From IMG/VR virus record IMGVR_UViG_3300028581_000152, positions 1 through 31,579 of that record: a stretch of DNA of 31,579 bases. One strand, written 5' to 3'. Every line of letters begins with the position of its first letter. The stretch's first letter is position 1. The stretch comes from a virus. The translations under genes were made by a program, and so were the position numbers. The notes under the pieces are model-generated. The model was not told the origin of the DNA. It did no database searches and worked only from the letters and a program-made list of their open reading frames with translations. Below are positions 1-23,092 of the stretch, piece after piece.

Positions 1-3000
1 GTACTAATTTGTAATGGATCACCGTCTACTAGATTATAGTTGTACGAATTCCAAGTAAGTGCGTTATAAACAGTAGGTAGTTTATTAGATGACAATATAC
101 CATAAACTTCAGAATATTTAGGAATAAATGTCTGTTCTCCTGTTCCGTTAGCACCACGTTGCAATCCTGTCACTGTGTTTGTGTCAAAGTTTACTGTGGT
201 AAATCCAATCTGCTCACCGTTAACATATATCAAATTACCCAATATGACTGTAATTGTTAACAACTCACCTCCAGAAACCCCACCAGTTATTTTAAGTATC
301 GGAGCTGTTGCCTCAACTGCAATATAATAATCTGCAGGGTCAACAGTCTGAGTAGTGTCATTGTTGTATACAATTACCTGACAAATTGCCTGTTTGTCAC
401 CCTCAAGACCAATGCTTATAATTCCGTCAATCTCAGCAGGAGCAGTTTCATTTTGAATGATAGTTTCTGTAATCATAGTCACATCTTCTACATAGATAGT
501 ATCGTCAGTATCTTGTAGGGTTTCAGTCAACCAAGTTCTTGTTAATGAGTTTGCTCTGTATACAGACGGTACTCCGGTCTTGTTAACATTTTGTAGATAT
601 ACTGCTTGATTAGGTGTTGCTGTTGGTATCATACTTGTAATAATTACAACATCACCTGGCTCAACTGTTGATAGTATACTTAAATTATTATCAGGATTTA
701 ATCTCAATGCACTTGATGGAATACGATAACCATTTATAGTTACCCATAGTCTATCAACATTGCCTTGTTCCCACTGTGATACGTTCATTGAACCAGTGTC
801 ATTAGTCAATGCAAATACATCACCATCACGAACCGCAGTGACTCTAAAGGTTGTTGCAGAAGGTTTATCATATACATAATAAATTGCAGTAGCAGTTCCT
901 GTACCTGTACCAACTCCTGTTGCAACAAAGTTAGTTCCTACATTATTATTCAATGCACCTATTAGTGTGAAGTCAGTAGTACCTTGACTATTGATTTGAT
1001 ATGTATTGCCTTCTGTAAAACTGCCAGCAGTAACTTCAGATTCCAATCCTCCCAATAAGTCAGAACCAGTAAAGATAATTGGTGTTCCTAATATTAATTC
1101 AAGTGAACTAGATACTGTTATTCTGTCATTAGATGCAGTTGTGGCAGTAGCAAGAGTAGTTGTAATTGTGAATGTCTTATCTAACCAAACATATCCACCA
1201 CCAGTCCAAGTTGATACTATTGTTACTGGATCGTTAATTGCATTTGCTGTAGGATCATATGCACTATTGTATAACGCAATTTGAGTTGCACTTATAATTT
1301 TAGCATAATATGTATTATTGTTTAGTTGTACAGATCCTAACGTTCCGTCAATTCTAACAATATCATTTTCTGCTAAATTATGCGGTACACCAGTTGTAAT
1401 AGACACAGCAGGATTTCCACTAACTTCAGCTAGAATTGCGCCTGAAGTAGTAACTTGAACCATTACAGGTCCGCTAGGTGTTTCTGATATAGTAAAATCA
1501 AATCCATTAACTACTGTTTTAATAAAATACACTGTTCCGTCACACAATATATTACCATATGGTGTTGCAGGATTAGAACGCTTAAACATAATTGGTTGTC
1601 CAGGAGAGAATCCTATAGTGGAAGAACAAGTAACCACATTAGTAGTAATCGTTGTGCTGGTTATACCAACTGTAATTGGAGCGGTAATAAGATTGTCTAC
1701 TCCTGATATTGGCGCTACTGTTGGTGGATTAGTAATGCCAATCATTGAGCCAAAATCAGTAGTCAATTGTATCGCCGAGCCGCCCGGTGTTTCTGATACT
1801 GCAAATTCAGTCGAGCTAATAATATTTACTACATAATAAGTTTGGTTAGCAACGATGCCACCAAATGTTGTACCAGTAAATGTGATAGCGTCATTAATAT
1901 TCAATGAATTTGTGTTACCTGAACTTAAAGTTAAGTAGTCAGGTCCTGGACTATACAATCCGGTGCCGGCTGTTCCAGTTCCGGTGCCTACACCAGTTGC
2001 TGTAAACATAGTTCCTACATTGTTGTCAACTGATCCTATCAATGTAAAGTTTGTTGTACCAACTGTCAATATTTCATAGGTAGCACCTATAGTAAACGAT
2101 CCAGCAGTAGTTATTACTCCGCCATCAAAACCAATTGCCGCAGTGCCTGTTCCAGTACCCGCACCACTAGCAGTAAACAAACTTTCAAGTGAAGTACCTG
2201 TTCCTGATCCTATTCCTGTAGCTACAAAAATGTTGTTTAAAGCAGTGCCTGTACCTGTACCAACGCCTGTTGCAACAAATTCCAGACCAATTGTATTTGA
2301 CGATGCACCTATTAATGTAAAATCAGTAGTACCGATTGAATTTATAATATATACATTTCCAATAACAAACGAGCCAGCAGCCACTTGAGTGGCGCCGATC
2401 AATGTAAAGTCAGTAGTACCTAATCCATCAATAGTATATGAAGTGCCTATAACGAACGAGCCGGCATTTATTTGAGTTGAACCAATTAGGGTGAAGTCCG
2501 TCGTTCCAACTTTAGTAATAACATACTCACTACCTACTAAGAATTGTCCGGCGGTTATATTTGCATCATATCCCGGTGTATGAGTTGTACTACCTATGAA
2601 GAATGAATTAGTAGTTGATCCAGAGAAAGTTCCACCATACGTAGTATGTAGATATTGTCTATCAGTTAAGTTATAGCTTGTAACTGCAACAGTATCGCCT
2701 GCACTTGTTCCAAAGTTTAAGCTTAATGTTTCAGTATTGAAATCAATAGTATAGTCAGATGTTTCTACTAAACGTCTACCATTGTGTTCAACAATAGCAT
2801 TTTTGGCATTATCGCCACCTACATAATTAGATAACGTAAACTCAGTAACAGCAGTTGTAAGTTCGAATAACTCTACTTCTGGGACTGTGTATCCATACTG
2901 AACTGGCGCGGTCTCACCAAAAACAGATAATACAACAAAGTCATTTGCTTGAGTATATTGATTAGCGAAAACAATCTTTGCTGTTATACCCTCATCTGCA

Positions 3001-6000
3001 ATAGCTATTGCATAGTCATTTGTAACGCATAATGCTATACCAGTTGCATTAGCTAATGTTACATTTGTTCCACTTGATGTTAATGATACAGTAAACTCAT
3101 TACCAACAATAGAAGTAATATAATATTGTTGCTGTGCTATTAGTCCAGACGAAACGAATGATCCAGTATCTATCGCATCACTGAACACAATTGTGTCACC
3201 TACCTCATAATGATCGGTACTATTAACAACAATAGTATTTGTTCCACTATTTGTTTCTGAAACAATACCCTGTTCGCCTAATACTAAATTAGTGCCGTTG
3301 TGAATAAGTATAGGATCCGTCCAAACTAATCCATTTGTTGATTGGATGTTTACAAGCATTATTCCAGTAGCAGATGTAACATCAAATGTAGGGCCTGCTA
3401 TACCACCTGACACAGATGCAGATATAGTTATTTTGTTAGTTATGTAACTTATTGTCTTTATCCAATATGTAGTACCGGATACTATTCCACCAAACACTGC
3501 ACCTTGGAATGTTATAGGTGCATTTACCGCAAAATAATCTACTGACTCGCATACGATGCCATTATCAATCGCATCCGTTTCGATTGCGTTAACTGATTTT
3601 GGATCAGTATTTGGTCGTATTACTCCGGAGCCATTAAATCTATCAGCAGAATAATTACAGTTCAATGGCATCTCAACAAAACCAGTCGAGATATTATCAA
3701 CGAACGGTATAGTTTGCGAATTGGCTTTAACTAGTTGATTACCATTGCCTACTTCGTATACATCTAGTCGTAGTGTATGGTCTACTGCTAATGCTGTTCC
3801 GATAGTAACTACTTTATTCACCCAGTCAACAGTAAAATCATAAATTCTTATACTAGTATTTGTTGCAGTTGTAATATCAAACAATGATATATTTGCCGGG
3901 TTCTCTACAACACCTTCAAATGAGAACTCTGTTTGACCAGAGTCTGGTACTATTTCAGTAGAGACAACATTGTAACCAGCATGTCCGTATATTGACGTAT
4001 CCCAATCAGTGCCAGGTCTTGTTGTGACAATCATTGTTAAATTATCAGATACTACCCCAGGAACTAATTCTTCTGGACCATAACCTGCAGTGAATGCATC
4101 TCCTTGTACATCGTATACAGTAGGTGCAGTTTCAAACACAGATGAACTAATCCAAGTATTTCCATTATTTGTACTTGTAATGATAGCGTTATCATCACCT
4201 ACTACTATCCATTCACCATCAATACTGTTATATGTTATACCATTTAAATCTTTTGTTGTACCTGACGTTTTAATCGTCCAAGTATATCCATCAGATGATG
4301 TTTTAATAGTACCTGTATTACCCACAGCCATAAACAATGAGTTAGCATACAACACATCATTTAATGTAGGACCTGTTGGGTAGATGTACATAAATGTAGT
4401 TGAAGGTGGATTAGTTGCATTCAATGTAATTGGAGATCCACCTGATGTAGTGCTTACTTTAAGTTGTGTAGAAGAAGTAACATCAACTACATAGTAAGTT
4501 GTACCGGATGAAATCACATTAAATGACTGAGTAAATCTTACTGTATTACCTACTTGGAATCCAGTAGTACTGCCAACGTTAATAACGTTAGTGCTTGCGT
4601 TTACACTAATAATGTTAGATTCATTTAGTCCAAACCAATTAGTGCCGTTCAATGATGTATATATTACACCATCCTCACCAACAGCAACAATCATTGAACT
4701 GCTTGATGTAACACCGTTAAATCCTTTGTATGATACAATAGGAAGTGTAGTCCAAACGTATCCATCAGAACTGATTTTAATAACACTTGTTCCTTGTGTA
4801 GATCCGGATATTATCTCTTGACCATTACCAACAGATATAAAACCTACATAGCTAGGTATGTTTACATACGTTACACTGTTTAAATTATTTACTAATCCAT
4901 TAGTAAATGTGTCTACTTGTGCCCATGAGAACGTATCAGTTGATAATACAATGTTTTCTCCTACTGCAATCCAAATAGCATTTCCATAAGCAACACTTGA
5001 TAGTGAAGTAGATTCTACAGATAATAAAGTAGAATCGTAATTATTTATAGAATAGGGTGTAGCATCATAGGGTGTGAAGGCTCCGCCGGCAGTAGTAAAC
5101 ACTATACCATCAGTACTTGTGTAAATAGGTGTAGTTGCACTTTCACAAACTATTACGAACAATCCATTAGCATAGATTATGTCAGAAGCATTAACTGGAA
5201 TATTTACTAATTTGTTTATTGCCCAACTTGATGCATCTACGCTTAACAGTGATGCAGAATATTCAGGTGTATTTGCGGCTGCAACATATGTTGTACCGTT
5301 CCAAGAAATAGCAACAGTATCTACACTTGTTGGGTAGAATGGTTGGTCTTGCAATATAGTATCTAATGTATATTGATCTTCCGGAGCAAATGCATTATCT
5401 AAATATGTACTATTTGGATAAGTAATGCCTTCAATCAATTGTGTTAAATCTACACCAGGCATATTAACTGTAGGGTCATAGTAACCAATGATACGATCCA
5501 ACTCGTTGAGTTTTCTACTACCACTATTTAATAATTCCCATTTACCTATAATGAATTCATTATCATTGTTACTGATAATACATTGCCATACTTGGTTGTT
5601 ATACTTAACAATACTTTGATTGAAGTAGAATGGCTCTGGTAAAAAAACATAATCACCCAATGTGTATTCTGTTTCTAATACTAGACCATTTACCGGGACA
5701 TTTAATAAAGGATTAGCATATACTTCACATTGTGTTGCAGAAATTACTTTTAAGTAATATTGACGTACTATACCTGCAGGAGTACCAGAACCAATTACAC
5801 TTGTAACGTTTCCGTCTGATTCTACTGGTAATAAGAAATCATAATTTGGATTAGTGTTAGCGACTATTACATCAATTCCACTAACAGTTAATACCAAATC
5901 ATTTAATGGACTTGTTCCACCTAAATCAGTTCCAGAAATAGTGATAGTGTTATCAAACGTGTATCCTGAACCCGGATTTACTATATCAATGGTATATCCA

Positions 6001-9000
6001 CCTAATTTCTTACCAACATTGAATGTTGGCGAAGATATTGGATCTTGCGTAAAGACTGTTTCTAGTATTTCATCCGTTAATCCGATTGCAGGATCACCTA
6101 ATGTGTCTGTCAATGTGATATAAGGGTTATCCGCTGTTAATGTCATCTGACCATTGTCAGTAGTTAATACAAGGTCACTGCCTCCTATTGTATCAGTAAT
6201 AGTAAACGTGTCGCCACCTAAATCATAGCTATTGATAAAATATGTTACTAATGCAACTACATTACCAAATACCGCACCAGAGAATGATATTGGCATGCCA
6301 ATATAGAATCCGGTTGTTAGTGTGCCTGAGGCTAATGTATATTCATTAGTAGATGAAGATGAGCTTGCCACTTCAACAGCTAATGCACCGTTAGATACTA
6401 CATAGTATGTGTCACCTGCAGTTAATCCGCCGATGCTTTCAGACAATACAAACGGTAAGTTGTTGTATATGTTTGTTAATCCACCGCTTAGATATCTCAA
6501 ATATAAATAATCACCGTTGCTTGTAGCGGCTACTGTATCTCTTGTTACTAAATTACCATTAGTTCCTGATACACCAGTACCTACACTAGCTACAGTTGGG
6601 TAGAACGTAAACAATTGACCAGTAACTTGTCCTGGGCTTACTGGTAGTCCAACGTTCATTGTCATTGAACCTGTTGCAGTTGTTAGTTGTACCGCAGTAG
6701 TTTGGCTAGTTAATGTGCAACTACCTGTTGCAGTACTCAATGTTGTGACCGGTCCGTTGATAGTAGATGACAATGTAATTTGTGTACCATTGTAAATGCT
6801 TGCAACATAATAAATTTGACCTGCAACAAGACCACCAAACATAGTTCCAGTAAAGATTATCGGGTCATTCACACTTAATTCTAACGTAGAACCAACTGTT
6901 ACTAAGTTAGTTGTTACAGTAGTGTTAGTTGCTGTTAATATTAAAGGATCATTTGTTGTTGATATAGTAAATGTTTCACTATCTATAACAGTTATGATAT
7001 AGTAAGTTTCATTTTCAATGATACCACCAAATACATTTCCAACAAAGTATACAGGTAGACCAACATAGAAGCCACTAGTTCCCGCAGTACCTGTTGGTAG
7101 TGTTGGAGTTGTAATGAAGTTGGTTGTTAATTCTGTTGCTGTTACATCTAATATACCAGGATATGCAATTGTAACAATAGCTGTGTTAGTTACTTCACCG
7201 GCGTAGCAAGACAAGCCGGCTGCGGTAACGGTGTAGTCAGTTAATGGCAGTACTGAACCACTAACTGTAGTTGATATTGAGAAGTCACTCTCATTTATAA
7301 CTTCAGCTACATAGTAGGTAGTATTATTTGTAATTACTGGACCTACTGCGCCAACAAATTTAACTGGCATTCCAACATAGAAACCAATTGTTGATCCGGA
7401 AGCATTTGGTTGGGTACTGTCGTAAGTTAATCTCACTGCATCATTTGCGGCTACTGTTTCACCTACTTGACGGATAAATGATGACCATGTAAGCACTTGG
7501 TCATTTGTAATATCTTGTATTTCAAATGTTGCACCTTGTGCGCTTGCCAAAATATCATTAACCGGTGGCTGAGTTTGTTCTAATGTAATAGCAGAACTTG
7601 CAATTCTTGTGCTGTTATTAAATAAACCAGCATAAAAGCTACCATAAAAATTGTCAGGTGCCCACTCAGTTACTTGAGAATCATATGTAGTTCTATCAAA
7701 TCGTAATGTAATGATATTTTCTCTAGTTGGTAAAGAAGTTGAAACACAACTTGCTCTGGCACTTACTGCAATATTATTATTACTTCCGGTTCCAGTATTA
7801 GTTAGTACGACTCTATCATGGTCTTGTAATGCATTTGCGTAACTAGTATACAATGCAACAACATAGAAAGGAGTATTTTCTAATACTGCTAGATAATAAT
7901 ATTGACCATCATCTAATCCACCCACCGCAGTGGTATCAGTACCTACATAGTATTGTATTAAATCACCTGTTTGTACAAATTGAGTTTGTAATGTAATTGT
8001 GTTTGTTAGTACATCAACATCGGTACTAGCAAATGTTACAATCTCACTCGGATCAATTCGAATTTCTGGCAATACTTGATAACCTTCACCTGGATCGATT
8101 ACATCAATTCGTAGAATCGTATCTAAGTTCATCACAGGTTGTAATATAGCCGCACGTCTTGGTGCTGGATATATAGTTGTATCAATATATGCAGTGACCT
8201 TTGGTGGTTCAGCATAACCTCTACCGCCATTTAATAACAACACAGGAGGTAAGTCAATGATAATTTGTTCACCGGGGAGATGATTTGTTATGGTAGTACC
8301 GTTAACTCCACGAGTCAATCCACTCAATGTGCTATATGCTCTATCAACACTACTGTATGCAATTTCCTCTTCACCTATTAATATAACACCTGTAGTTGGG
8401 AAGCCGTATACATTATCAACAACCATTGATATGCTATTCAATGTCAAATATGATAATAATAAAGTGATTGGATAATCATTTACCCCGGTGATGCTTAAGC
8501 CTTGATTATTGAACCAATTGATATATGGTTGAGTTTGCCAGATAGGGTCAGTTGGCAAGTATTGATTGATACTACTTGGATTAGCGTATACTAATTCAGG
8601 AGTGATATACTGTTGAAACTGTGTGTTATATTGTGCAGGTAAATCAAAATCAGTTATCTCACCTTCGTACACATTAGTGCCAGTGTATTTAAATAAGAAG
8701 TCTTTGATTACCACATGATAAGGTTTAGCTTCATTTAAATAACCTGCTAAGAATTCTTGGTTATCACTTTGGAATACTTCTAATGGTAATAATTCACGTA
8801 TGGTATGTGCAACATCTATGAATGACGTTTTGTTTAACCATGGTAAATAATTTTGACTCTCAATTGTTTCACTAACAATATAATTGAACATCAAAATTAA
8901 TGATTTATTTCTAAACAATAATAAATTGCTAGGTAATTCTTCATTTACTGCACGAATAATACTACGTGTTTCTTCACTTGGGAAGGTATCAAAAGGTGTC

Positions 9001-12000
9001 GTGTCAAAAAAGTTATCACCAAATCCTATTCGTGCTTCTGCATAATCCCATAATGAACTACTAAACTGTATTGTACCATTTTGCAATCCAATACGGACCC
9101 ACTCAATGCCATCATACACATATGTTTCTTGTAATCCGTCACCATTCTTATTAACAGTAACAATTAGTCCAAGTTGAGCATTGATTGGAGCTAAATCATA
9201 ATATGATTCCACTAACATAGCAGACTTAGTATTATCATTATATCCAGGTGCCCACCAGTTAATTAATTCCCAGTAATCTTGTGTGTTGTAGAATAATTCT
9301 GGTGCACCAGGCCAATTTGGGTTATCAACTGTAGAAGGATTGATTGCACCTTCTGTGAATAAGAATTTCAAACTGCTTGTTTCAGCTAATGGATATTGTG
9401 CTAATACTGTGTTATAGAATTGCAAATAGTTTTCTAATGCTTTAAATCTATTGTAGAAGAAACTTTGACGAGGACGTACTAATATACCACTCTGTACTGG
9501 TTTTGGTAAGAACGGATCAGGAACAACAGCGCCGGTTTGATTGACACCACTGAAACTCTCAAGCATTCTGTTATACAATGATTCCGGTACTACTGTATCT
9601 CCTATGCCAGGTAGTCCTGGTAAGAAATCATCAGCATAATTAGAACGTATTAAACTGTACACACTATGCGAAACATCGTCATTTGTTCCTGTAGCAAAGC
9701 CAATATGCAATGCAGTATCAGTCGCATTGATATTACTACCGCAATTATATAAACCAAATACATTTGGTTGTATTGCTGCCATATATGAAATACCTGTAGA
9801 CAATGGGGTAGCTATATATGATTCACATATAGTATCTGATAATGTTTTTCCTATTTGGTTAAACACAATGTTTGTATTTCTTACCCAATAGTAATATACA
9901 GGTACAAGAGCTCCTGTGCTATTCAATCTATATTCAATTGCATAGTCATCAATACTACGAGGTGTGCCTGGTCCTTGATATACGATTGGTTCAACGTCAC
10001 TGGTAACCCAACTATATACTTTAACGTCACTGCCTGGGAATACTCTACCCCACCATTTACTATTATAAACAACATCATCACTTTGATGATAGTTTACAAA
10101 TCGTGTAGTGCTTGTATCGAACCATAACTTACCTAATTGTCCCGGACCCCATACGGTAGAACCTTTATTCGTTGCATCAGGACTATTGTAATTTGCAGGA
10201 TCAGTGTTAGATACTATGTCTAAATTCTCACGTACTGCGCCCAATAATTTACCTTGCAACGGATCAATATAATCTAAATTGTCTAATGTATTGTTAGTTG
10301 ATACACTATATAACTGAACGTTTTGTATAGCATCAGTATCAACGATTGGTGCAGAATTACGATACACTATCCAATCAGATTCACCTGAACTATTGTTATA
10401 AATCACTACTTGACCATTATCATATCCAGGTCTAAAGTTAGGTGTACCAATGATAACGCTGTTATTATTAAAATCTAACGCTGTACCATAATATGGTTGG
10501 CTACCATAATCTTCATTCAGTGCATTAACGCTTTGAGCATATACATATGCACCAGAATTATTTACATTTTCATTGTAAACAGGCAAGTAATCGTACATAT
10601 ACACTGCGCCTGCATTAACAAAACTATCTATGAACTGTGTTGTATTGTTATCAAACAATGTATCATTGTCATAGTTTTCATCATCACTTGCATCAAACGT
10701 TGTTTCTGCATATCGTGCTGATGCCGGAGCACTTACTACAAATGAACCACTAGAGTTAAATTTAATAGTAGAACCAAATTGTGTTCTACCTTGACTATGC
10801 GGGTCATTGATTAATTGTGTTTGTGTATATAACTGTATACCCAATTGGTCTAATACATCAGCATCTAAAACAGACACAGTTAACTTAGCATTGATAAACG
10901 CTAAATCTACACTGATAACTTGAATAGTTAAAATGTTATTTGAAGCAGATGCAGTAACGTTTGTGATGTTTGCAGAAGTAATAGCATTGGCAGCTGCCGT
11001 TGCATTTCCTGCAGGAATATTTACAGCATAACCATTTACTAATATTGTAGTAGCCGCAGTTACGTTGCACTCAGTAGTGCCGGTAACTATACCATAACTG
11101 CTACCTCCATATGTATAACGATAAACAGCACCTTCAGCATTTTGACTGTTAATTTCAAACGGTGCGCCAATCAATAATTCATTTGCATAAGTGTCTACAT
11201 CTAAGCTATAACCAAAGTTTGTTCCAACTTCAGGATTAGCATCTACTGATGTGAATTCTTGTGTTAATACAAATTCAGAACCGCTTACAGTAATGATATC
11301 ACCTGCAGTTAATGATTGGTAAACATTAATATTTGTTCCAACAACACCGTATTCATTATCATCAATCAATGTCCCATTAACGCTTACAAAGATTGGTTCA
11401 GTTTGTTGAACAGCGGACATTGAACCAGTGTCGGTAATTAATTGTAATGTTGAACCACCTCGTTCAGTAGATACAGTGAAAGTAGTTCCTGATGGTTTAG
11501 CCAATACATAATAAACTGTGTTTAATGATACTCCACCAAATACAGTTCCAGTAAACACGATAGGATAACCAACTGTTAGAACAGAACTGTCAGTACACGT
11601 AAAACGGTCAGTACCTGCGTTAGTATCAGTGACCGTCACTGGTGTTGTGATTGGTGTAAATATCAAACTAAACGTTTGTGGGGCAAACGGTGAGCTTGTA
11701 AATGGTGCCTCAAACGTTTGTACTAACCTTTCAAAAGAGTAAGCAGTACCTAAATCAGCAACAACGGTATCATTTTCTGGCGCACTAACAGCTACAATAT
11801 TACCATAATAGTTTGTGGCAATAGAATAACCAAAACTATCACCTGCACTTAATCCGGCAACTGTAATCGTGTCAGATAATTCATATAAAGTAGTTAAATC
11901 AGATTTACGATAGACATAAACTAAATTCTGTTCATATGCAGAGATGTATAGCCAATTTTGGTCACCAGATAATGCGATTGAAGAACCCCAGTTGGTTACA

Positions 12001-15000
12001 GAATCGTCATCAGGTGATTCAATTACTTGTACTTCTTGCAATTCGTTAAGTAAATTGTTAATTACTAAATCGTAAATATAAACTTTTCTGTCAGTATAGG
12101 CTGCACCAGTTGGTTGTGATATTACAAATAAATTATCTGAATATGCAATCGTAGAACCAAAAGATATACCCTCAGTAATTGTTTGAACAATACTATAAGA
12201 ATCAAAAACCGAGCTATAAGAATAACGATATGCAACACCGGTCTCTGCGTCACTAATCAAATAACCTAAATTACTTGTTTGTGCAACTGCACTACCATAT
12301 GTTAATGAATTAGTTTTTAATAATTCATCTTCATATACATAGTTTAAACTCTTACGATATACAGCCCAAGAGCCATCATCATTTTCATCAACCCAAACTT
12401 TGTTCTTTACAAATTCACTGTCAAGTAAAGGCAAGTTATTAATATCACTTGGTGTAGCTACACGTTGAGATGAGAATTTCATCGCAACACCTTCACCGGT
12501 GATTGTTGTCAATGCCGATGATAAACTTAATAGAATAGTTACTCTAAATGGATCTACTACTGTTGCAACAATTCTGTAACCATCAATATTACTATTAAAA
12601 TTAATAATAGCAAATGGTTGATATTTTGTTAAATTGTGCGGTGTTGCAAACTGTAGTGTGACAGTTCCATTTAAGTTATTGATTGCACCCACTACTTGTC
12701 CGGCACTTGTTGGAGTATATACTTGCCAAGTGCTATTATAATCAGCTAACCATACGTATTCATTTACATATAAATGTGATAGAGGAGTTGTTGCAGTATT
12801 CAATCCATTATAATAGTACGATGAGATTTTAACATCATTAAAGTTAGTATAACCTGCATCCGGGAACACTCTATTTGGTGTATCTGACGGTAATGTGGGT
12901 AATACATTTGGATTATTTATAGGTCTTCCATAATTAAAAACTGAATATAACGGTACTTCTTGTTCTACACCATCAGTATACACACCGGTAGTAAGTCCAA
13001 CAATAGATGGATTACCTGTTAATTGATTTTGATTTAATCTAAAATCAACAAAGTTATTGTTTAATACACCACCAAACTCGCCGGTCTTAATAGCCCAGTT
13101 TTCATACACATCATAATCAATACCACCTTGTGGTAAGTTTAATCCTTTAAAACTATTTGCCGCAATTCGTGTACCTTTTTCTTTGATAAGATTTTTATAA
13201 ACATTAACCTGTGTTATGTCTGTCAAATCAGCTAATGCTAAGTAATCACGTGGTCTATATCCAATCAATGACCAACTTAGTAGGTCACTATCTTGGTCTA
13301 AATTAGTTTTGTTTGTATCATAAAACAATGTTGCTTCATATGAACGTGTTGAACTGTTAGGCAGTAACCCTTTCTGAATCTCATTATAATCAGTTTCTTT
13401 CCAATACTGTTCTTCAAATATTTCCTTTGCATTTAATACTTTTAATGCAAACCAATATTTGTTTTTATACTTAACAATACTGCCTCTTGTATACTTTTGA
13501 TTAGTACTCCATTCTTCAATATTATTTTGGTTAAGAATAAAGCCTTGTGCATCAATAGTACCATTCCAATCAGCAGACTTTGTGCCTCTGGTTAAGATAC
13601 GATTTTGTCTTAAGCCAGTTACTAAATTATACAATACGTCATTGAACACAGTAACATTATCAAACACAATACCGTGTTCAAAGTTACTAATGTTAAACTG
13701 ACCATACGCAACAGTATCACCTTCATTTAATGGTGTTGCACTAAAGAACGTACTATCACGTGTTACTGATAATTCATTACTTTGTATTGGGTAGAAGTTT
13801 TGATTTAAAATAAAGTTTTGTCTTTGTAGTGTTAGAGGTTGAACTATATGACTATCTTTATTAATAGTAATCAAATTAGCGGCTGGATTTAAGTTAATTA
13901 AACTTCCTGTTTCCCAACCACTCTGTGCCCAGTATAATAATTCCGTAACCATTTGACGCCAGTTAACATCTATACCAGATTCTATTTGGTCAAATAATAC
14001 ACCTTGTGTTAATAAATATCTTCCATAGTTAGCTATAAATTGACTTAGTGATTGTAAGTCAAGAAACTCAGTTCCGTATGGTACAATATTAGTTTTGTTT
14101 TCAGTATAGTCATTTGCTAGTTGAACTGATATATTACCCACTGTAACTTTATTGTAGTTTCCATTAATCTTAGGAGTTACCGTAGTGAAGTATGCGGTAT
14201 CTTGTGAGTTACCAAATACTTTCCAACCAGCGTTTGTGCTTTGCACAACAACGCCGCTATAAATTACAGTGGTTATAGGTACATTATCATACAATACTAC
14301 ACTATAACTTTCGTCTGGAATTAGTAATGATGCATTTCTACTGTTTGGTGTTCCCTTTTCAACATAGAAACCAAGCAAACTCTTATCACTAAATCCTGCC
14401 AATCTATAAATCAATCTTACATCTAAATTATCAAATAAGTCTGTAATATTTTGTGTGGCATTAATACCAACTTGCTTTTCATAATCAACTATCCAGTTTA
14501 TATAACTTGTTTTTGCCGTTCCATTACCATATATGGCAACATCACTAATCACTAAGTGACTGCGATTATTAACTAGATATTGATTAAACTCCGTACTAAA
14601 TTTGTAGTTGTCTACATCAAAACCCAAGTTAAAGAATTTTGCAGGTTTAGTAAGAGCAAGAATCTTCATTAAGTCGAAAGGCCAACTACTGCTTCTGCGG
14701 TATGAGAATTCAACTGGGCCTACATCTCCTACAGCCCATTCATTTCTAAATGTTCTGAAATTATAGTTACCCATCACTGCATCAAACGGGGATAATAAAT
14801 TACCTGCACCATCTACTGGTATTACACTTAATAATTCTTCTCTAATAAATTCAGGCAAGACAATTGGATCACCGTTATTCCAGTTGATGCCCGCAGCCAT
14901 ATCTCCCCATAATACCAAGTTATCACTTGTGTATGGTGCGGCGCCGTATCTATCAGTCCACCAAGTTGGTTGATTTGTAAAGCCAATCATTTCCCAAGGT

Positions 15001-18000
15001 GTGGTGTTTGGAGTACTTGTATCATAGAAGTACTCATATATACCTCTCCAGAATCCTTGTGGAATTGGTTGTCCATTAATTCTATTACCGGACTGGGTGT
15101 AATTATAACTAAACTGGTCATTGGGTTGATAAAATTGTTTCTTATATTCAATGCGATTCTGCCCAACCCAATTTAAGAAATACTGACTGTATATTTGTAA
15201 GACTTCATCATATGAGTAGTTGGTTGTTCTAAAGAATCCCGGAATAACATCATATTCAGTAATAGGAACTATGTCTGTTAATTTAAGATTATTATAAACA
15301 CGTGATTCAAATTCCAATAGTGCTTGGTCTCTAAAGTCAACTAAATTTCCATCAATATATTCTCCATATAATTTAGTATATGAACCATCATGTCCTTGAA
15401 TAAAATATGTAGGTTGAGAATAATTACTATCTAATACAACTCCGGGAATAAATGAGGGGTATAATCCTAATTTAGTAGGAGTGTTTGGTACATAACTTCC
15501 AAAAGTCTGATTGTATTCTTTAATTGTTACAATGTCTCCAGCAGATAAGTCTTTTGTAATAGTCAATGATGGAGTATCTGTACTTACTGTATAATCCTGA
15601 TTAACAATCAATTGTTGTGTTGATGTAAAGTTATCTACTGTTGTAGTCAAATAAACTAATACGCCATAATAATTTGCGGTATCAAAATTATAAATTCTTG
15701 TTAAAGGGTAGATACTTGTATCTAATGAGTTAGCAAAAGTATATGTATTAGTAGCATATGCCGCTTTACTTGGCAACATATCACTCCAGAAAAAAGGTTC
15801 TGATTCTGTTTTGTTTTGGGTAATTTGATCCAATGCATCATCTAAAATAGTTGCAGGAGTCTGATATATGTTATATTCAGTTCTATCTATAGTATAAACC
15901 AATAACGACCTAAAAGTAATATACTGCTGACTGTTATACTGCAAAGAATTAATAAGATTATTATTTTGTGACCTTAACAACGATCCAGGTAATGCTAAAC
16001 TTGCACTATTTTGAATAATCTTATTTCCCCAAGGCACAAGATTACCTAAGTCACGATAATTGTTTGAGCCAAAAACGTCGCCGGTTGTGTTTGGGTTGTT
16101 ATAGAAAATACTTTGATATTGACCGCGAATGTCACCTACGTTAACAACAGATACATCATCATTGAACGGATTGTTTTGTAAGTTGATAGGTATTTGATAG
16201 TATGCAGTTGGACTTACCTGATCGCTTAATAATGTGATTTCAACTACTGTATCAATCAGTGGATTAGGTACAGTGAAATTTACAACTGTAGTATTATCTG
16301 TAATGGTAAAAGTATAAGTTGATGTATCTTGTAATACGTTATTAACGTAAACTTGAATATTAGGCCATACTGTATTTGTTGAGGCAGCTATATCACAAGT
16401 ATAGGTTGTAGTTGCTTCAGATGCAACATAGTTAAAAGAAAATATTTGATACTGACGACTTTCTGCAACAGCGGTTTGCCATCCTAATTGTCTAACAACA
16501 GTTGTTCCAGATGTGTAATTATATACATAACCTGTATTAACTTTTTGTGTAATTGGATTAGTACCACTTACATAATTAAATGTTTCACTGTTTAATGGTA
16601 CGTCAAAACTGATATCACCTACGTTATTAACTGCACTATAACGTAGTGGGAATCCTAGTACAATATCTTTAATTCCAGAACCAATTCCATAACTGAATAA
16701 TTTATTGCCAGCAAATGATGTACCTACATATACATCGGTGTTGCCAAAACTAATGCCATCATTATCAAATATATCAAAGTATGGTGCTTGATTAACTGTT
16801 GTTTTTTGTTGTGCTATTAACCATTCAATACCATCAAAGTAAAAATCTTTACCTTCATTATTATATCCCTTAAATGCAAAGGTGCATTCCAACGGTAATA
16901 CTAATCCGTCACTTGCTTCAGTAAGAGTAATTACCGGCGTGCCTGTACCTTGTATATCAGAAAATCTTACAACATATATTTTGTTTCTAACATTTTCATT
17001 TGTATCGGCAGAAAAAACAATTCTTGCACCATCATATAATGAATAATTATCATTTGATAAATCATTTGCTACCAATGATGAACCTGTAGTGGCAGGAATC
17101 GTTGTAGAAGTATCCCAAGTCACAGTAAGTGTTAAGGTTGACGTACCTGTAATAGTAGTAATTTGAGTATTTCTAGGTAAGACATTTGTAGTATCACTTA
17201 TGTATTGCCCAACCTGAAATGTGCCGGTAACATCTGATGCGGCAATAGTAATTGTCGTACTTGTTCCAGTAACACCTGCAATAGTTGCAGTATAAGCAGT
17301 ATATGTTTCAACGTCTGGCCAATAATTTTCTTGACCGGCTACAAGTGTAAATGCATCAGTTGTTCTATCATCAAAGAAATCAATTGGATCTTTGCCAACG
17401 ACACCATTATTAAATAACCTTAAATTAGGATAAAACTCAATGATTGGGCGTTTAGCTTTATTGTCCTGTGTTGCATATATTGTTGCAATCGCAGGATTAT
17501 TATTATAGGTAGCAGTTGCATTGATAACATCAATGTGGAACCAACGGTTGCTTCTTGACCAAGCATTTTTATCTATACTGTTTCGTGCAATCGTAATATA
17601 ATCTTGATACACAGGGATGTATAGTGTGCTATCATAGTTACCTATATCATATGGCAATGAATCAAATGGGGTGTATGCACCTTCAGTAAAAGGTTCCGGT
17701 GTAATAAGGTCTGCTACGTTTAATAATTCAATTGCTGTACCAACACCTTCTACATAATATTCACCATCTTTATAGCTTGTAGGAAAAATATCACCACTGA
17801 AACTTACTTTAAGACCATTAGTAAACACTACACCATTTGGACTTGTATATTGTTGTTGACCTAATATTTCAGTAATATCTATTTGATTAGTTGAATTGCT
17901 TTCAATCAATCTAATGATACCAACCTTGTTAGCACTTGTGCCGTCTTGGTAATACAATGTATCTAATATAGCACTTAGATATGGTACAAGATTAATAGAT

Positions 18001-19175
18001 CCACTAGTGTTGCGGAAAAAGTTTCGTGCTTTCCATTCTGTGCCATAGTTTGCAGTAATCTTTTCATTTGTTGGAATGTTACTTGCAGGAACTAATCTTA
18101 ATACAGGATCAGATGGGTCACCTACATAAGTTATTGTGTAGAATGTAGCAGATACATCCGTATAAAAGCCACCTTCAAAATTATTGAAATCAGCACTAGT
18201 GCCAGGTGGTGTGTAGCTCGCACCACCATCTTCATCAAATAATGTAGTATCATAAAACTTAGAAGTAAATCCTTGTTCATCAACAACTCCGGTATTGTAA
18301 AACATAACAGTAAGACCTTCAAGTCCTGTCACGCCATCAATGTTGCCTACATCACTTAACAACTGACCATTGATTTGGTCGAACGGTGTAGTAGACACAA
18401 CGTCTACTAAATTATTACCCGGGAAGTTATATTCATCTTGTGCATTTTTATATGGTACTGTAAATATAACGACACCGGTAGTCGTGCCATTATTTTCAAC
18501 ACCCAATACATCACGTGTTTGTAAATTAAGTTGTTGTGGATCATATCCAGTAATACCCGGTTTACCTTGAATCCAAAATTCAGTAGGCTGATTTACAGTA
18601 AACGTATATGTGCCACCACGAATCAATGTTAATGTGGGATTGGTTGTGCCGGCTGGATTAACGTCACTCGATATATTATAACCATTAGGTAGACTTCTAA
18701 CTGTGTAGTCTGTGGCAGTATAAACAATATCTGTGGAAATATTAACAGATGGTGCACCTGTTGGCAACCAATAATATTGATTAAAGTTAATTATTTTATC
18801 TAAGTTAGTAAAGCTATCCCAAGAATAAAATTCACTGTTGAATAATCTATCATTGTTATCTGTTAATGCACCTTCTAATTTTAATGCATCTATGATACCG
18901 GGATAACTGATAAAATCTTTAGCAGTATTTGTATTTGTTTTGGTAAAAACAACTCCAGGATCTAATTGATAATCTCTGCGAACTTTTGTAGGTTCTACTA
19001 CGTAATTATCTTTAGCGTTAATACCATAACCAAATTTACTACCAATATAACCCTCAATCCTCATCGTATTGGGTTGGTCAACGATTTGATCCAGTGTTGC
19101 CCCCAAGAATTGACTATTAGTAGGTGTTTGGAATATCTCTGGTAAAAAATTTAGTGTTCTAATTCGTGCTGCCAT
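1..19175 (-). CDS. Giant virion structural protein (baseplate/fibre), at least 6,391 aa, C-terminus beyond window
   Basis: The ORF starts at ATG 19175-19173, after an AGAGAG ribosome-binding site, and stays open to position 1. Stretches I translated across the whole length contain no stop. The N-terminus (MAARIRTLNFLPEIFQTPTN) and a YYWLP motif near residue 130 recall the very large structural proteins next to gp6 in T4-like cyanophages and pelagiphages (from memory). Visible parts in order: N-terminal half (residues 1-2280) rich in Trp/Tyr/Asn, with WPFDLMKILALTKPAKFF near residue 1490; an FG-GAP propeller (2290-2930); a conserved block near 3170-3570 with KTSFIDVAHTIREL and YLNEAKPYH; beta repeats with TYYV cores; a BNR/Ycf48-like propeller (4610-5020); and tandem GTTDFTLIG repeats (5540-6100). 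It follows gp6, where T4 carries gp7 and gp8, so it may be a much enlarged gp7-type wedge protein or a fusion. A role in the baseplate periphery or host contact is inferred. Confidence 0.93.
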   Translation of the reverse strand, partial: MAARIRTLNFLPEIFQTPTNSQFLGATLDQIVDQPNTMRIEGYIGSKFGYGINAKDNYVVEPTKVRRDYQLDPGVVFTKTNTNTAKDFISYPGIIDALKLEGALTDNNDRLFNSEFYSWDSFTNLDKIINFNQYYWLPTGAPSVNISTDIVYTATDYTVRSLPNGYNISSDVNPAGTTNPTLTLIRGGTYTFTVNQPTEFWIQGKPGITGYDPQQLNLQTRDVLGVENNGTTTGVVIFTVPYKNAQDEYNFPGNNLVDVVSTTPFDQINGQLLSDVGNIDGVTGLEGLTVMFYNTGVVDEQGFTSKFYDTTLFDEDGGASYTPPGTSADFNNFEGGFYTDVSATFYTITYVGDPSDPVLRLVPASNIPTNEKITANYGTEWKARNFFRNTSGSINLVPYLSAILDTLYYQDGTSANKVGIIRLIESNSTNQIDITEILGQQQYTSPNGVVFTNGLKVSFSGDIFPTSYKDGEYYVEGVGTAIELLNVADLITPEPFTEGAYTPFDSLPYDIGNYDSTLYIPVYQDYITIARNSIDKNAWSRSNRWFHIDVINATATYNNNPAIATIYATQDNKAKRPIIEFYPNLRLFNNGVVGKDPIDFFDDRTTDAFTLVAGQENYWPDVETYTAYTATIAGVTGTSTTITIAASDVTGTFQVGQYISDTTNVLPRNTQITTITGTSTLTLTVTWDTSTTIPATTGSSLVANDLSNDNYSLYDGARIVFSADTNENVRNKIYVVRFSDIQGTGTPVITLTEASDGLVLPLECTFAFKGYNNEGKDFYFDGIEWLIAQQKTTVNQAPYFDIFDNDGISFGNTDVYVGTSFAGNKLFSYGIGSGIKDIVLGFPLRYSAVNNVGDISFDVPLNSETFNYVSGTNPITQKVNTGYVYNYTSGTTVVRQLGWQTAVAESRQYQIFSFNYVASEATTTYTCDIAASTNTVWPNIQVYVNNVLQDTSTYTFTITDNTTVVNFTVPNPLIDTVVEITLLSDQVSPTAYYQIPINLQNNPFNDDVSVVNVGDIRGQYQSIFYNNPNTTGDVFGSNNYRDLGNLVPWGNKIIQNSASLALPGSLLRSQNNNLINSLQYNSQQYITFRSLLVYTIDRTEYNIYQTPATILDDALDQITQNKTESEPFFWSDMLPSKAAYATNTYTFANSLDTSIYPLTRIYNFDTANYYGVLVYLTTTVDNFTSTQQLIVNQDYTVSTDTPSLTITKDLSAGDIVTIKEYNQTFGSYVPNTPTKLGLYPSFIPGVVLDSNYSQPTYFIQGHDGSYTKLYGEYIDGNLVDFRDQALLEFESRVYNNLKLTDIVPITEYDVIPGFFRTTNYSYDEVLQIYSQYFLNWVGQNRIEYKKQFYQPNDQFSYNYTQSGNRINGQPIPQGFWRGIYEYFYDTSTPNTTPWEMIGFTNQPTWWTDRYGAAPYTSDNLVLWGDMAAGINWNNGDPIVLPEFIREELLSVIPVDGAGNLLSPFDAVMGNYNFRTFRNEWAVGDVGPVEFSYRRSSSWPFDLMKILALTKPAKFFNLGFDVDNYKFSTEFNQYLVNNRSHLVISDVAIYGNGTAKTSYINWIVDYEKQVGINATQNITDLFDNLDVRLIYRLAGFSDKSLLGFYVEKGTPNSRNASLLIPDESYSVVLYDNVPITTVIYSGVVVQSTNAGWKVFGNSQDTAYFTTVTPKINGNYNKVTVGNISVQLANDYTENKTNIVPYGTEFLDLQSLSQFIANYGRYLLTQGVLFDQIESGIDVNWRQMVTELLYWAQSGWETGSLINLNPAANLITINKDSHIVQPLTLQRQNFILNQNFYPIQSNELSVTRDSTFFSATPLNEGDTVAYGQFNISNFEHGIVFDNVTVFNDVLYNLVTGLRQNRILTRGTKSADWNGTIDAQGFILNQNNIEEWSTNQKYTRGSIVKYKNKYWFALKVLNAKEIFEEQYWKETDYNEIQKGLLPNSSTRSYEATLFYDTNKTNLDQDSDLLSWSLIGYRPRDYLALADLTDITQVNVYKNLIKEKGTRIAANSFKGLNLPQGGIDYDVYENWAIKTGEFGGVLNNNFVDFRLNQNQLTGNPSIVGLTTGVYTDGVEQEVPLYSVFNYGRPINNPNVLPTLPSDTPNRVFPDAGYTNFNDVKISSYYYNGLNTATTPLSHLYVNEYVWLADYNSTWQVYTPTSAGQVVGAINNLNGTVTLQFATPHNLTKYQPFAIINFNSNIDGYRIVATVVDPFRVTILLSLSSALTTITGEGVAMKFSSQRVATPSDINNLPLLDSEFVKNKVWVDENDDGSWAVYRKSLNYVYEDELLKTNSLTYGSAVAQTSNLGYLISDAETGVAYRYSYSSVFDSYSIVQTITEGISFGSTIAYSDNLFVISQPTGAAYTDRKVYIYDLVINNLLNELQEVQVIESPDDDSVTNWGSSIALSGDQNWLYISAYEQNLVYVYRKSDLTTLYELSDTITVAGLSAGDSFGYSIATNYYGNIVAVSAPENDTVVADLGTAYSFERLVQTFEAPFTSSPFAPQTFSLIFTPITTPVTVTDTNAGTDRFTCTDSSVLTVGYPIVFTGTVFGGVSLNTVYYVLAKPSGTTFTVSTERGGSTLQLITDTGSMSAVQQTEPIFVSVNGTLIDDNEYGVVGTNINVYQSLTAGDIITVSGSEFVLTQEFTSVDANPEVGTNFGYSLDVDTYANELLIGAPFEINSQNAEGAVYRYTYGGSSYGIVTGTTECNVTAATTILVNGYAVNIPAGNATAAANAITSANITNVTASASNNILTIQVISVDLAFINAKLTVSVLDADVLDQLGIQLYTQTQLINDPHSQGRTQFGSTIKFNSSGSFVVSAPASARYAETTFDASDDENYDNDTLFDNNTTQFIDSFVNAGAVYMYDYLPVYNENVNNSGAYVYAQSVNALNEDYGSQPYYGTALDFNNNSVIIGTPNFRPGYDNGQVVIYNNSSGESDWIVYRNSAPIVDTDAIQNVQLYSVSTNNTLDNLDYIDPLQGKLLGAVRENLDIVSNTDPANYNSPDATNKGSTVWGPGQLGKLWFDTSTTRFVNYHQSDDVVYNSKWWGRVFPGSDVKVYSWVTSDVEPIVYQGPGTPRSIDDYAIEYRLNSTGALVPVYYYWVRNTNIVFNQIGKTLSDTICESYIATPLSTGISYMAAIQPNVFGLYNCGSNINATDTALHIGFATGTNDDVSHSVYSLIRSNYADDFLPGLPGIGDTVVPESLYNRMLESFSGVNQTGAVVPDPFLPKPVQSGILVRPRQSFFYNRFKALENYLQFYNTVLAQYPLAETSSLKFLFTEGAINPSTVDNPNWPGAPELFYNTQDYWELINWWAPGYNDNTKSAMLVESYYDLAPINAQLGLIVTVNKNGDGLQETYVYDGIEWVRIGLQNGTIQFSSSLWDYAEARIGFGDNFFDTTPFDTFPSEETRSIIRAVNEELPSNLLLFRNKSLILMFNYIVSETIESQNYLPWLNKTSFIDVAHTIRELLPLEVFQSDNQEFLAGYLNEAKPYHVVIKDFLFKYTGTNVYEGEITDFDLPAQYNTQFQQYITPELVYANPSSINQYLPTDPIWQTQPYINWFNNQGLSITGVNDYPITLLLSYLTLNSISMVVDNVYGFPTTGVILIGEEEIAYSSVDRAYSTLSGLTRGVNGTTITNHLPGEQIIIDLPPVLLLNGGRGYAEPPKVTAYIDTTIYPAPRRAAILQPVMNLDTILRIDVIDPGEGYQVLPEIRIDPSEIVTFASTDVDVLTNTITLQTQFVQTGDLIQYYVGTDTTAVGGLDDGQYYYLAVLENTPFYVVALYTSYANALQDHDRVVLTNTGTGSNNNIAVSARASCVSTSLPTRENIITLRFDRTTYDSQVTEWAPDNFYGSFYAGLFNNSTRIASSAITLEQTQPPVNDILASAQGATFEIQDITNDQVLTWSSFIRQVGETVAANDAVRLTYDSTQPNASGSTIGFYVGMPVKFVGAVGPVITNNTTYYVAEVINESDFSISTTVSGSVLPLTDYTVTAAGLSCYAGEVTNTAIVTIAYPGILDVTATELTTNFITTPTLPTGTAGTSGFYVGLPVYFVGNVFGGIIENETYYIITVIDSETFTISTTNDPLILTATNTTVTTNLVTVGSTLELSVNDPIIFTGTMFGGLVAGQIYYVASIYNGTQITLSSTINGPVTTLSTATGSCTLTSQTTAVQLTTATGSMTMNVGLPVSPGQVTGQLFTFYPTVASVGTGVSGTNGNLVTRDTVAATSNGDYLYLRYLSGGLTNIYNNLPFVLSESIGGLTAGDTYYVVSNGALAVEVASSSSSTNEYTLASGTLTTGFYIGMPISFSGAVFGNVVALVTYFINSYDLGGDTFTITDTIGGSDLVLTTDNGQMTLTADNPYITLTDTLGDPAIGLTDEILETVFTQDPISSPTFNVGKKLGGYTIDIVNPGSGYTFDNTITISGTDLGGTSPLNDLVLTVSGIDVIVANTNPNYDFLLPVESDGNVTSVIGSGTPAGIVRQYYLKVISATQCEVYANPLLNVPVNGLVLETEYTLGDYVFLPEPFYFNQSIVKYNNQVWQCIISNNDNEFIIGKWELLNSGSRKLNELDRIIGYYDPTVNMPGVDLTQLIEGITYPNSTYLDNAFAPEDQYTLDTILQDQPFYPTSVDTVAISWNGTTYVAAANTPEYSASLLSVDASSWAINKLVNIPVNASDIIYANGLFVIVCESATTPIYTSTDGIVFTTAGGAFTPYDATPYSINNYDSTLLSVESTSLSSVAYGNAIWIAVGENIVLSTDTFSWAQVDTFTNGLVNNLNSVTYVNIPSYVGFISVGNGQEIISGSTQGTSVIKISSDGYVWTTLPIVSYKGFNGVTSSSSMIVAVGEDGVIYTSLNGTNWFGLNESNIISVNASTNVINVGSTTGFQVGNTVRFTQSFNVISSGTTYYVVDVTSSTQLKVSTTSGGSPITLNATNPPSTTFMYIYPTGPTLNDVLYANSLFMAVGNTGTIKTSSDGYTWTIKTSGTTKDLNGITYNSIDGEWIVVGDDNAIITSTNNGNTWISSSVFETAPTVYDVQGDAFTAGYGPEELVPGVVSDNLTMIVTTRPGTDWDTSIYGHAGYNVVSTEIVPDSGQTEFSFEGVVENPANISLFDITTATNTSIRIYDFTVDWVNKVVTIGTALAVDHTLRLDVYEVGNGNQLVKANSQTIPFVDNISTGFVEMPLNCNYSADRFNGSGVIRPNTDPKSVNAIETDAIDNGIVCESVDYFAVNAPITFQGAVFGGIVSGTTYWIKTISYITNKITISASVSGGIAGPTFDVTSATGIMLVNIQSTNGLVWTDPILIHNGTNLVLGEQGIVSETNSGTNTIVVNSTDHYEVGDTIVFSDAIDTGSFVSSGLIAQQQYYITSIVGNEFTVSLTSSGTNVTLANATGIALCVTNDYAIAIADEGITAKIVFANQYTQANDFVVLSVFGETAPVQYGYTVPEVELFELTTAVTEFTLSNYVGGDNAKNAIVEHNGRRLVETSDYTIDFNTETLSLNFGTSAGDTVAVTSYNLTDRQYLHTTYGGTFSGSTTNSFFIGSTTHTPGYDANITAGQFLVGSEYVITKVGTTDFTLIGSTQINAGSFVIGTSYTIDGLGTTDFTLIGATQVAAGSFVIGNVYIINSIGTTDFTLIGASSNTIGLEFVATGVGTGTGTALNNIFVATGIGSGTGTSLESLFTASGAGTGTGTAAIGFDGGVITTAGSFTIGATYEILTVGTTNFTLIGSVDNNVGTMFTATGVGTGTGTAGTGLYSPGPDYLTLSSGNTNSLNINDAITFTGTTFGGIVANQTYYVVNIISSTEFAVSETPGGSAIQLTTDFGSMIGITNPPTVAPISGVDNLITAPITVGITSTTITTNVVTCSSTIGFSPGQPIMFKRSNPATPYGNILCDGTVYFIKTVVNGFDFTISETPSGPVMVQVTTSGAILAEVSGNPAVSITTGVPHNLAENDIVRIDGTLGSVQLNNNTYYAKIISATQIALYNSAYDPTANAINDPVTIVSTWTGGGYVWLDKTFTITTTLATATTASNDRITVSSSLELILGTPIIFTGSDLLGGLESEVTAGSFTEGNTYQINSQGTTDFTLIGALNNNVGTNFVATGVGTGTGTATAIYYVYDKPSATTFRVTAVRDGDVFALTNDTGSMNVSQWEQGNVDRLWVTINGYRIPSSALRLNPDNNLSILSTVEPGDVVIITSMIPTATPNQAVYLQNVNKTGVPSVYRANSLTRTWLTETLQDTDDTIYVEDVTMITETIIQNETAPAEIDGIISIGLEGDKQAICQVIVYNNDTTQTVDPADYYIAVEATAPILKITGGVSGGELLTITVILGNLIYVNGEQIGFTTVNFDTNTVTGLQRGANGTGEQTFIPKYSEVYGILSSNKLPTVYNALTWNSYNYNLVDGDPLQIS
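135..240 (-). repeat. GEQI...GLQRGANGT module, second copy
   Basis: The translation reads NLIYVNGEQIGFTTVNFDTN followed by TVTGLQRGANGTGEQTF. It resembles a segment near 8400-8280 (GVILIGEEEIAYSS followed by LSGLTRGVNGT). Both fit a short beta module with the pattern G-E-(Q/E)-I-x-(F/Y)...G-L-x-RG-x-NGT. Two diverged copies in one ORF suggest internal duplication. Confidence 0.55.
885..1028 (-). repeat. Isolated copy of the AGSF...GTTDFTLIGA repeat
   Basis: This single unit reads AGSFTEGNTYQINSQGTTDF followed by TLIGALNNNVGTNF and a GVGTGTGTA strand. It matches the long form of the units at 1960-2552, but about 300 residues of other sequence lie between them. Confidence 0.8.
1230..1900 (-). 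repeat. Second cluster of TYYV-type beta repeats
   Basis: Three consecutive units carry the same core: DAITFTGTTFGGIVANQTYY (about 1895-1835, ending in GSMIGIT near 1740), FSPGQPIMFKRS with a diverged VYFIKTV core (about 1610-1520), and a more diverged unit with NNNTYYAKI (about 1330-1300). They belong to the same family as the cluster at 6150-7390. Confidence 0.7.
1960..2552 (-). repeat. Tandem AGSF...GTTDFTLIGA protein repeat in the giant ORF
   Basis: Reading the minus strand, four consecutive units share AG(S/Q)F-x-(V/I)-G-x-x-Y-x-I-x-x-x-GTT(D/N)FTLIG(A/S). The first two units (2552-2466 and 2465-2379) are exactly 29 residues (87 bp) each. The third and fourth carry an extra Gly/Thr strand (FVATGVGTGTGTA and FTATGVGTGTGTA). 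Between them are two further truncated GTGTGT strands (about 2240-2137). A fifth, isolated copy lies at 1028-885. Protein identity is much higher than DNA identity, so the array is old or under selection at the protein level. Confidence 0.85.
4130..5330 (-). other. BNR/Ycf48-like seven-repeat beta-propeller within the giant protein
   Basis: Seven repeats follow the pattern (I/V)-x-Y/W-x-N-x-x-(F/W/Y)-(I/V)-x-V-G-x(5-10)-(I/Y)-x-(T/S)-S-x-(D/N)-G-x-x-W, typical of BNR (Asp-box) or Ycf48-like propellers. Examples are GLFVIVCES...IYTSTDGIVF (about 5080-5200), IWIAVGENIVLSTDTFSW (about 4920-4990), MIVAVGEDGVIYTSLNGTNW (about 4635-4700), LFMAVGNTGTIKTSSDGYTW (about 4280-4345) and WIVVGDDNAIITSTNNGNTW (about 4150-4220). 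Blades 5 and 6 are separated by about 75 residues that form one TYYV-type beta repeat. In known proteins this fold occurs in sialidases, in Ycf48 and in glycan-binding domains. I see no sialidase catalytic set, so binding is likelier than catalysis. The repeats are seen; the role is inferred. Confidence 0.72.
6150..7390 (-). repeat. Cluster of TYYV-type beta repeats in the giant ORF
   Basis: Four or five adjacent units share the order G(F/L)-x-V-(G/N)-x-P-(I/V)-x-F-x-G-x-(V/M)-FGG-(I/L)-...-(T/I)YYV-x-x-(I/V)-...-(F/I)-(T/S)-(I/L)-S-(T/S)-T-...-G. Examples: FYVGMPVKFVG...TTYYVAEV (7390-7290), FYVGLPVYFVGNVFGGI...TYYII (7070-6960), DPIIFTGTMFGGLVAGQIYY (6870-6790), a degenerate unit near 6470-6350 and FYIGMPISFSGAVFGNV (6320-6200). 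Several end in a GSM or GQM turn followed by a new strand. Further single copies lie near 11590-11410, 4560-4430, 3540-3380 and 3210-3040. The units look like small beta-sandwich or beta-solenoid modules. Confidence 0.75.
10390..12303 (-). other. FG-GAP/integrin-alpha-like seven-repeat beta-propeller within the giant protein
   Basis: Translation of the giant frame gives seven blades of the pattern (F/Y/W)G-(S/Y/T)-x-(I/L/V)-x(6-10)-hydrophobic-(I/V)-(G/S)-(A/T/Q)-(P/Y/E), most ending in a V-Y-x-Y strand. Blade cores are YGSAVAQ (about 12290), FGSTIAYSDNLFVISQP (about 12155), WGSSIALSGDQNWLYISA (about 11985), FGYSIATN...VAVSAPEND (about 11840), FGYSLDVD...LLIGAP (about 11220), FGSTIKFN...VVSAP (about 10780) and YGTALDFNNNSVIIGTP (about 10495). 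Seven is the usual number for FG-GAP propellers, which in integrins and related proteins bind ligands and metal ions. Between blades 4 and 5 lies an insert of about 160 residues holding a TYYV-type beta repeat; between blades 5 and 6 lies another, of about 100 residues. The blade pattern is seen directly; the fold and a binding role are inferred. Confidence 0.75.
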
Positions 19176-19196: not shown

Positions 19197-19204
19197 TACT
19201 TATC
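19197..19204 (-). promoter_or_regulatory. Possible late promoter motif GATAAGTA before the giant gene
   Basis: On the minus strand GATAAGTA ends 21 bp before the giant gene's ATG and overlaps the gp6 stop codon. It differs by one base from GATAAATA before gp6 and before the whole block, and resembles the T4 late motif TATAAATA. It is the weakest of the four matches. Confidence 0.4.
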
Positions 19205-23084: not shown

Positions 23085-23092
23085 TATTTAGA
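23085..23092 (-). promoter_or_regulatory. Late promoter-like motif TCTAAATA before gp25
   Basis: Minus-strand TCTAAATA lies 17 bp before the gp25 ATG and overlaps the last codons of the gp5-like gene. CTAAATA-type late motifs have been proposed in T4-like cyanophages (from memory). The spacing matches that of the motif before gp6. Confidence 0.42.

Follow-up and report, generated by a model that had tools for sequence, protein, structure and literature searches.

What kind of protein occupies the place directly after a gp6-type baseplate gene when the reading frame found there runs on for more than six thousand codons? The DNA that we analysed (IMGVR_UViG_3300028581_000152; 31,579 nt, hereafter the window) is an entire IMG/VR record, and 60% of it is taken up by one such frame. 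In phage T4, the gene directly after gp6 encodes the baseplate wedge protein gp7 (1,032 aa). We asked whether the frame is one intact gene, to which family its product belongs and whether that product is an enlarged gp7.

Translation bore out the preliminary description of a minus-strand frame that starts at 19175, has no stop and is still open at the window edge; its coordinates and its share of the window, as a single ORF of at least 6,391 codons, were both right. The frame opens with an ATG, 24 bases separate that ATG from the stop of the gp6-type gene, and the part of the coding sequence inside the window (3..19175, minus strand) holds residues 1-6391 of 6404. Its end was found beyond the contig edge, where the preliminary description had proposed to look. 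When the gp6-type protein and the last 1,000 residues of the giant were used as queries, a second record came up, IMGVR_UViG_3300028557_000015 (116,205 bp). It matches the ORF with 100% identity and carries a TAA 13 codons further on. According to this record the full-length protein has 6,404 aa, and the window is short of 13 codons and the stop.

As the source is a metagenomic contig judged without reads, we considered an assembly artefact, that is, a chimera or a hidden frameshift or stop lost through error. The chance of so long an open run is about 10^-201 under an i.i.d. model at 35.9% GC. When the ORF is compared with G002, its closest distinct homologue, changes are more frequent at third than at first and second codon positions in every 500-codon block to the C-terminus, so that the codon-position signal spans the whole ORF. 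Thirty records allowed the ORF that follows gp6 to be traced from its first codon; of these, 26 distinct ones are complete (a count that takes in the identical record and leaves out two near-identical copies) and two run off their contigs. All 26 distinct homologues, which come from many metagenomes, are uninterrupted and measure 5,717-7,346 aa (median ~6,420). These homologues and the identical second record rule out an artefact, whose probability we regard as negligible. The ORF is a real, intact single gene under purifying selection, placed directly after gp6, and its source is an uncultured aquatic jumbo myophage with a giant genome.

The neighbourhood is that of a baseplate cluster. To the right of the ORF, on the same strand, lie genes for a gp6-type wedge subunit (1,123 aa; 19200..22571, minus; phrog_10646), a gp25-type wedge subunit (22618..23067, minus; GPW_gp25), a gp5-type hub/tail lysozyme (1,086 aa; 23088..26348, minus), an 871-aa structural protein (phrog_11190), a gp53-type wedge subunit (103 aa; 28965..29276, minus) and a 426-aa structural protein (phrog_12050), beyond which a divergent late sigma factor gene stands on the other strand. 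The order late sigma factor, structural protein, gp53, structural protein, gp5, gp25, gp6, giant is common to the window, PA5oct and RaK2, small inserted genes aside. The gp5-type protein is about twice as long as T4 gp5, and profiles recognise only its first half.

On the 3′ side of the giant, the second record encodes a conserved phage protein (phrog_11259), a Peptidase_G2-domain protein and radical SAM genes. The Peptidase_G2 domain (intramolecular chaperone autoproteolysis), which is typical of fibre and spike proteins, sits in the second gene 3′ of the giant (L087:13860-15092), and a radical SAM/SPASM cluster follows the structural genes (L087:19245-22998). Radical SAM genes are also found near the giant's locus in Atu_ph07 and Phosso. 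In Salicola phage SCTP-2, the neighbour upstream of the giant is a further ORF, of 3,096 aa (26272-35562), and the gp6-type gene is about 90 kb away.

Slices of the window protein matched PHROG 10938 with E-values down to 1e-82. In blastp, E-values of 4e-112 against PA5oct and 1e-83 against Atu_ph07 were obtained, and hhalign against the RaK2 group gave 100% probability (E down to 3e-90). The body of the protein is homologous, with its segments in the same order, to RaK2 gp465, PA5oct gp355, Atu_ph07 gp180, phAPEC6 gp245 and CBB_236. As in the window, the giant of RaK2 and PA5oct comes right after gp6, with gp25, gp5 and gp53 upstream. Given this body homology and a gene position directly after gp6, with gp53, gp5 and gp25 in the same cluster and a late sigma factor gene on the opposite strand, the sequence comparisons identify the product as an enlarged form of the PHROG 10938 protein that RaK2-type phages encode in their baseplate locus. 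The giant after gp6 has 3,326 aa in RaK2, 3,857 in PA5oct, 4,449 in Atu_ph07 and 4,555 in Phosso, that is, 3.3-4.6 kaa against 6,404 aa in the window protein. The preliminary description was correct in seeing one intact polypeptide, placed after gp6 as T4 gp7 is, and a T4-like cluster, but it overlooked that RaK2-type jumbo phages have named proteins of 3.3-4.6 kaa related to this one.

Some relatives are known components of the virion. For phAPEC6 gp245 (381.88 kDa), 17 unique peptides with 7.6% coverage were detected by mass spectrometry of virions (PMC7247149), and for CBB_236 there were 21 peptides with 7.72% coverage (PMC5259590); both are homologues that lack the long arm. Their genes directly adjoin a gp6-type gene. 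PA5oct gp355 is flagged ESI-MS/MS in its record. The family is spread over hundreds of aquatic phage contigs; no relatives were confirmed in GTDB genomes, which thus gave no clue to the host.

Pairwise and profile comparisons confine the homology to the RaK2 group to two segments. The N-terminal part of the body (residues 1-2190; 12606..19175, minus) is collinear with the giants of RaK2, PA5oct and Atu_ph07 except for an insertion at about residues 160-520. The C-terminal part (residues 2931-3560; 8496..10385, minus) ends after a K-P-Y-H motif at about residues 3479-3489. Between them lies an added segment (residues 2191-2930; 10386..12605, minus) without counterpart in the RaK2 group, in which we found weak FG-GAP-type matches just under the Pfam cut-off (2442-2480 and 2666-2685) and one FCCH-like repeat (2527-2593). 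Among diverse relatives whose start was seen, about 2,800-3,900 residues precede the KPYH motif, with one exception at 1,353. An NCBIfam scan of the N-termini returned no match.

An AlphaFold2 model of residues 2934-3569, built from a 71-sequence alignment, reached a mean pLDDT of 78. In BFVD it matched giant, uncharacterised proteins from uncultured Caudovirales, with E-values down to 4e-49, and the structural protein of Atu_ph07. In the PDB it found nothing better than E 0.6 and no T4 baseplate chain among the matches, and two body profiles run against the PDB with hmmsearch gave nothing credible.

The remainder is an arm (residues 3561-6404 in the full protein, 3561-6391 in the window; 3..8495, minus), beta-rich and modular. 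Five RaK2-group proteins that we tested have neither this FCCH-repeat arm of about 2,850 aa nor the FG-GAP-like segment. Self-BLAST did not return the internal repeats; they were spotted by reading the sequence, and an iterated HMM supplied the counts. Thirteen FCCH-like repeats are present in the window protein, 12 of them in the arm; there are 9-16 per long protein and none in the five RaK2-group proteins. Within the arm the repeat HMM marks one cluster at residues 3926-4349 (6129..7400, minus) and a distal one at 5752-6133 (777..1922, minus). Between these clusters lie a strongly conserved block (4501-4560; 5496..5675, minus) with a weak CBM_5_12-like match at 4518-4536, a BNR/YCF48-like propeller region that varies between relatives (about 4620-5010; 4146..5318, minus) and GTTDFTLIG-type repeats (5539-5736; 1968..2561, minus), of which another occurs at 6047-6096. 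Single Pfam matches in the arm are weak; among 16 members, E1_FCCH was matched in 10 and CBM_5_12 in two, and propeller models were matched too.

Among relatives, the arm has lower identity than the body and many indels. By what follows the KPYH motif, relatives fall into a group with a short remainder, of 552-1,589 residues, and one with a long remainder, of 1,933-3,270. The number of GTTDFTLIG repeats differs between relatives, reaching 13 copies, and this copy-number variation is a candidate route to rapid change in arm length. By our estimate, an arm built as a string of modules of about 60-90 residues could span on the order of a hundred nanometres; the tails of RaK2-type phages measure 120-130 nm. 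An arm comparable in length to the tail would be possible only if it is such a string of folded modules. A model of residues 2931-3700 from 24 close sequences (pLDDT 46) matched a JBD30 baseplate chain in the PDB with E 3.6e-3; this low-confidence model suggests a phage-type beta domain at the start of the arm, and we do not rely on it.

We then come to T4 gp7. Both genes directly follow gp6, and the same baseplate neighbourhood is presumed for their products, but the window protein is about six times as long and has no detectable sequence-profile similarity to gp7. The gp7 family profile scored below 1% against all slices of the protein, deepened profiles included, although this negative is limited, as a true pair, a gp6 compared with T4 gp6 as single sequences, scored only 6%. 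In no slice did hhalign find similarity to gp8, gp9, gp10, gp11 or gp12. A 2.6% hint of gp8 vanished when the profile was deepened. The comparison of slices with T4 gp7, gp8 and gp10 that had been proposed at the outset thus returned no similarity.

These results bear on the idea of a hugely expanded gp7, raised in the preliminary description. The slot after gp6 agrees with it, the window giant standing in the position of gp7, but on these sequence comparisons homology to gp7 is not shown. The protein could still be a true gp7, highly diverged and enlarged, whose gp6-binding domain persists somewhere in the body but has changed too much for sequence methods to find it. The exact position after gp6 speaks for this, as do the existence of giant gp7 proteins in cyanophages and the failure to detect a gp7 elsewhere in the relatives. 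Set against it are the scores below 1% in all slices, the lack of any KGT..SF-type match and the AlphaFold2 model of residues 2934-3569, which covers only part of the body and found no T4 baseplate chain. On balance we consider a diverged gp7 rather unlikely.

The cyanophage proteins deserve a closer comparison. The proteins that T4-like cyanophages encode in the gp7 slot are 4.1-4.9 kaa long (L174:2865-15188, L182:5992-18195, L183:5977-19581, which is cut, and L184:5908-19284), and in DSL-LC03 (4,107 aa) and MED4-213 (4,458 aa) a giant annotated as baseplate wedge initiator/subunit follows gp6, as in the window. As a set, these giants align with T4 gp7 over the KGT..SF segment (hhalign 93%). 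They keep this gp7-like segment and are followed by gp8, whereas the window family shows neither. Arm-type modules are common to both (hhalign 93% at residues 3620-3808), and BLAST aligned a cyanophage gp7-slot giant most strongly with the propeller region, at residues 4819-5058. The common pieces are repeat modules and not the body. This suggests that the slot after gp6 became giant in two lineages, RaK2-type and cyanophage, whose bodies look unrelated in sequence.

Has the giant, then, replaced T4 genes? The gp8 Pfam model, which recognises gp8 in T4 and in cyanophage MED4-213, detected none in nine relatives of 200-525 kb, RaK2 and Atu_ph07. BLAST for gp7 in the same set was likewise negative, which is weak evidence, as this search missed cyanophage gp7 too. 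Replacement of gp7 and gp8 by the giant is possible; their absence fits it but is no proof, because the contigs may be incomplete. Of the earlier proposal that several T4 genes were replaced by or fused into one polypeptide, the replacement of gp7 and gp8 can thus be kept as possible, while fusion with gp8, gp10 or fibre parts is not shown, no similarity to them having been found.

A related alternative is a polyprotein of former genes (gp7, gp8 and fibre) that is cleaved as the virion assembles, to give several distinct proteins of the particle. Jumbo phages encode prohead proteases, the protein divides clearly into a conserved body and a variable arm, and gp8 is unrecognisable in the relatives. 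Yet no slice resembles gp8, gp9, gp10, gp11 or gp12, and weak gp9- and gp10-N-like matches fall in separate ORFs, not in the giant. We hold such cleavage to be improbable, and clearly more so than a diverged gp7.

We favour the reading, at a probability of about 60%, that the giant is an intact, enlarged PHROG 10938 virion protein, a peripheral baseplate component in the place of gp7 with a covalently fused, modular and probably host-contacting arm. The protein would be made late, as one chain, and would assemble beside gp6, gp25 and gp53, in the place of T4 gp7 and perhaps gp8. Assembly would be the work of the body (residues 1-2190 and 2931-3560). The C-terminal arm of about 2,850 residues, in which small beta modules may be strung together with propeller and carbohydrate-binding-like pieces, would project from the baseplate and contact the cell envelope or polysaccharide. 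The adhesive arm would then be covalently part of a wedge protein, in place of a separate fibre. The composition and variability of the arm fit the predicted host contact. The wedge role is read from gene position, because no solved wedge protein proved to be related in fold. A bolder version, in which one unrelated protein took over the work of both gp7 and gp8 and carries the host-contacting arm as a one-piece wedge-plus-fibre, its reach evolving by gain and loss of repeat modules, is a tentative proposal that we think doubtful.

The size of the protein has precedent. Predicted proteins of huge phages reach 7,694 aa, and a structural role was tentatively given to some of them (Al-Shayeb et al. 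2020, PMC7162821); these are comparable in size to the window protein but, as far as we could see, are not treated there as a family of the baseplate locus in which a body and an arm are told apart. Members of the present family are already in UniProt, unannotated. The protein is thus real and unusually large, yet of an already known kind. No study describing its family as such was found, and the view of a family that joins a RaK2-type body to a long arm of modules, and that extends over hundreds of phage contigs from aquatic sources, appears to be undescribed in the literature searched.

What emerges is a family of giant baseplate-locus proteins, carried by hundreds of environmental phage contigs, in which a fixed body is set against a variable modular arm. 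That giants follow gp6 in both RaK2-type and cyanophage lineages makes one ask why this position should grow. Should the arm be what touches the host, sequence data would allow tests of how reach and host range evolve in jumbo phages that have not been cultured.
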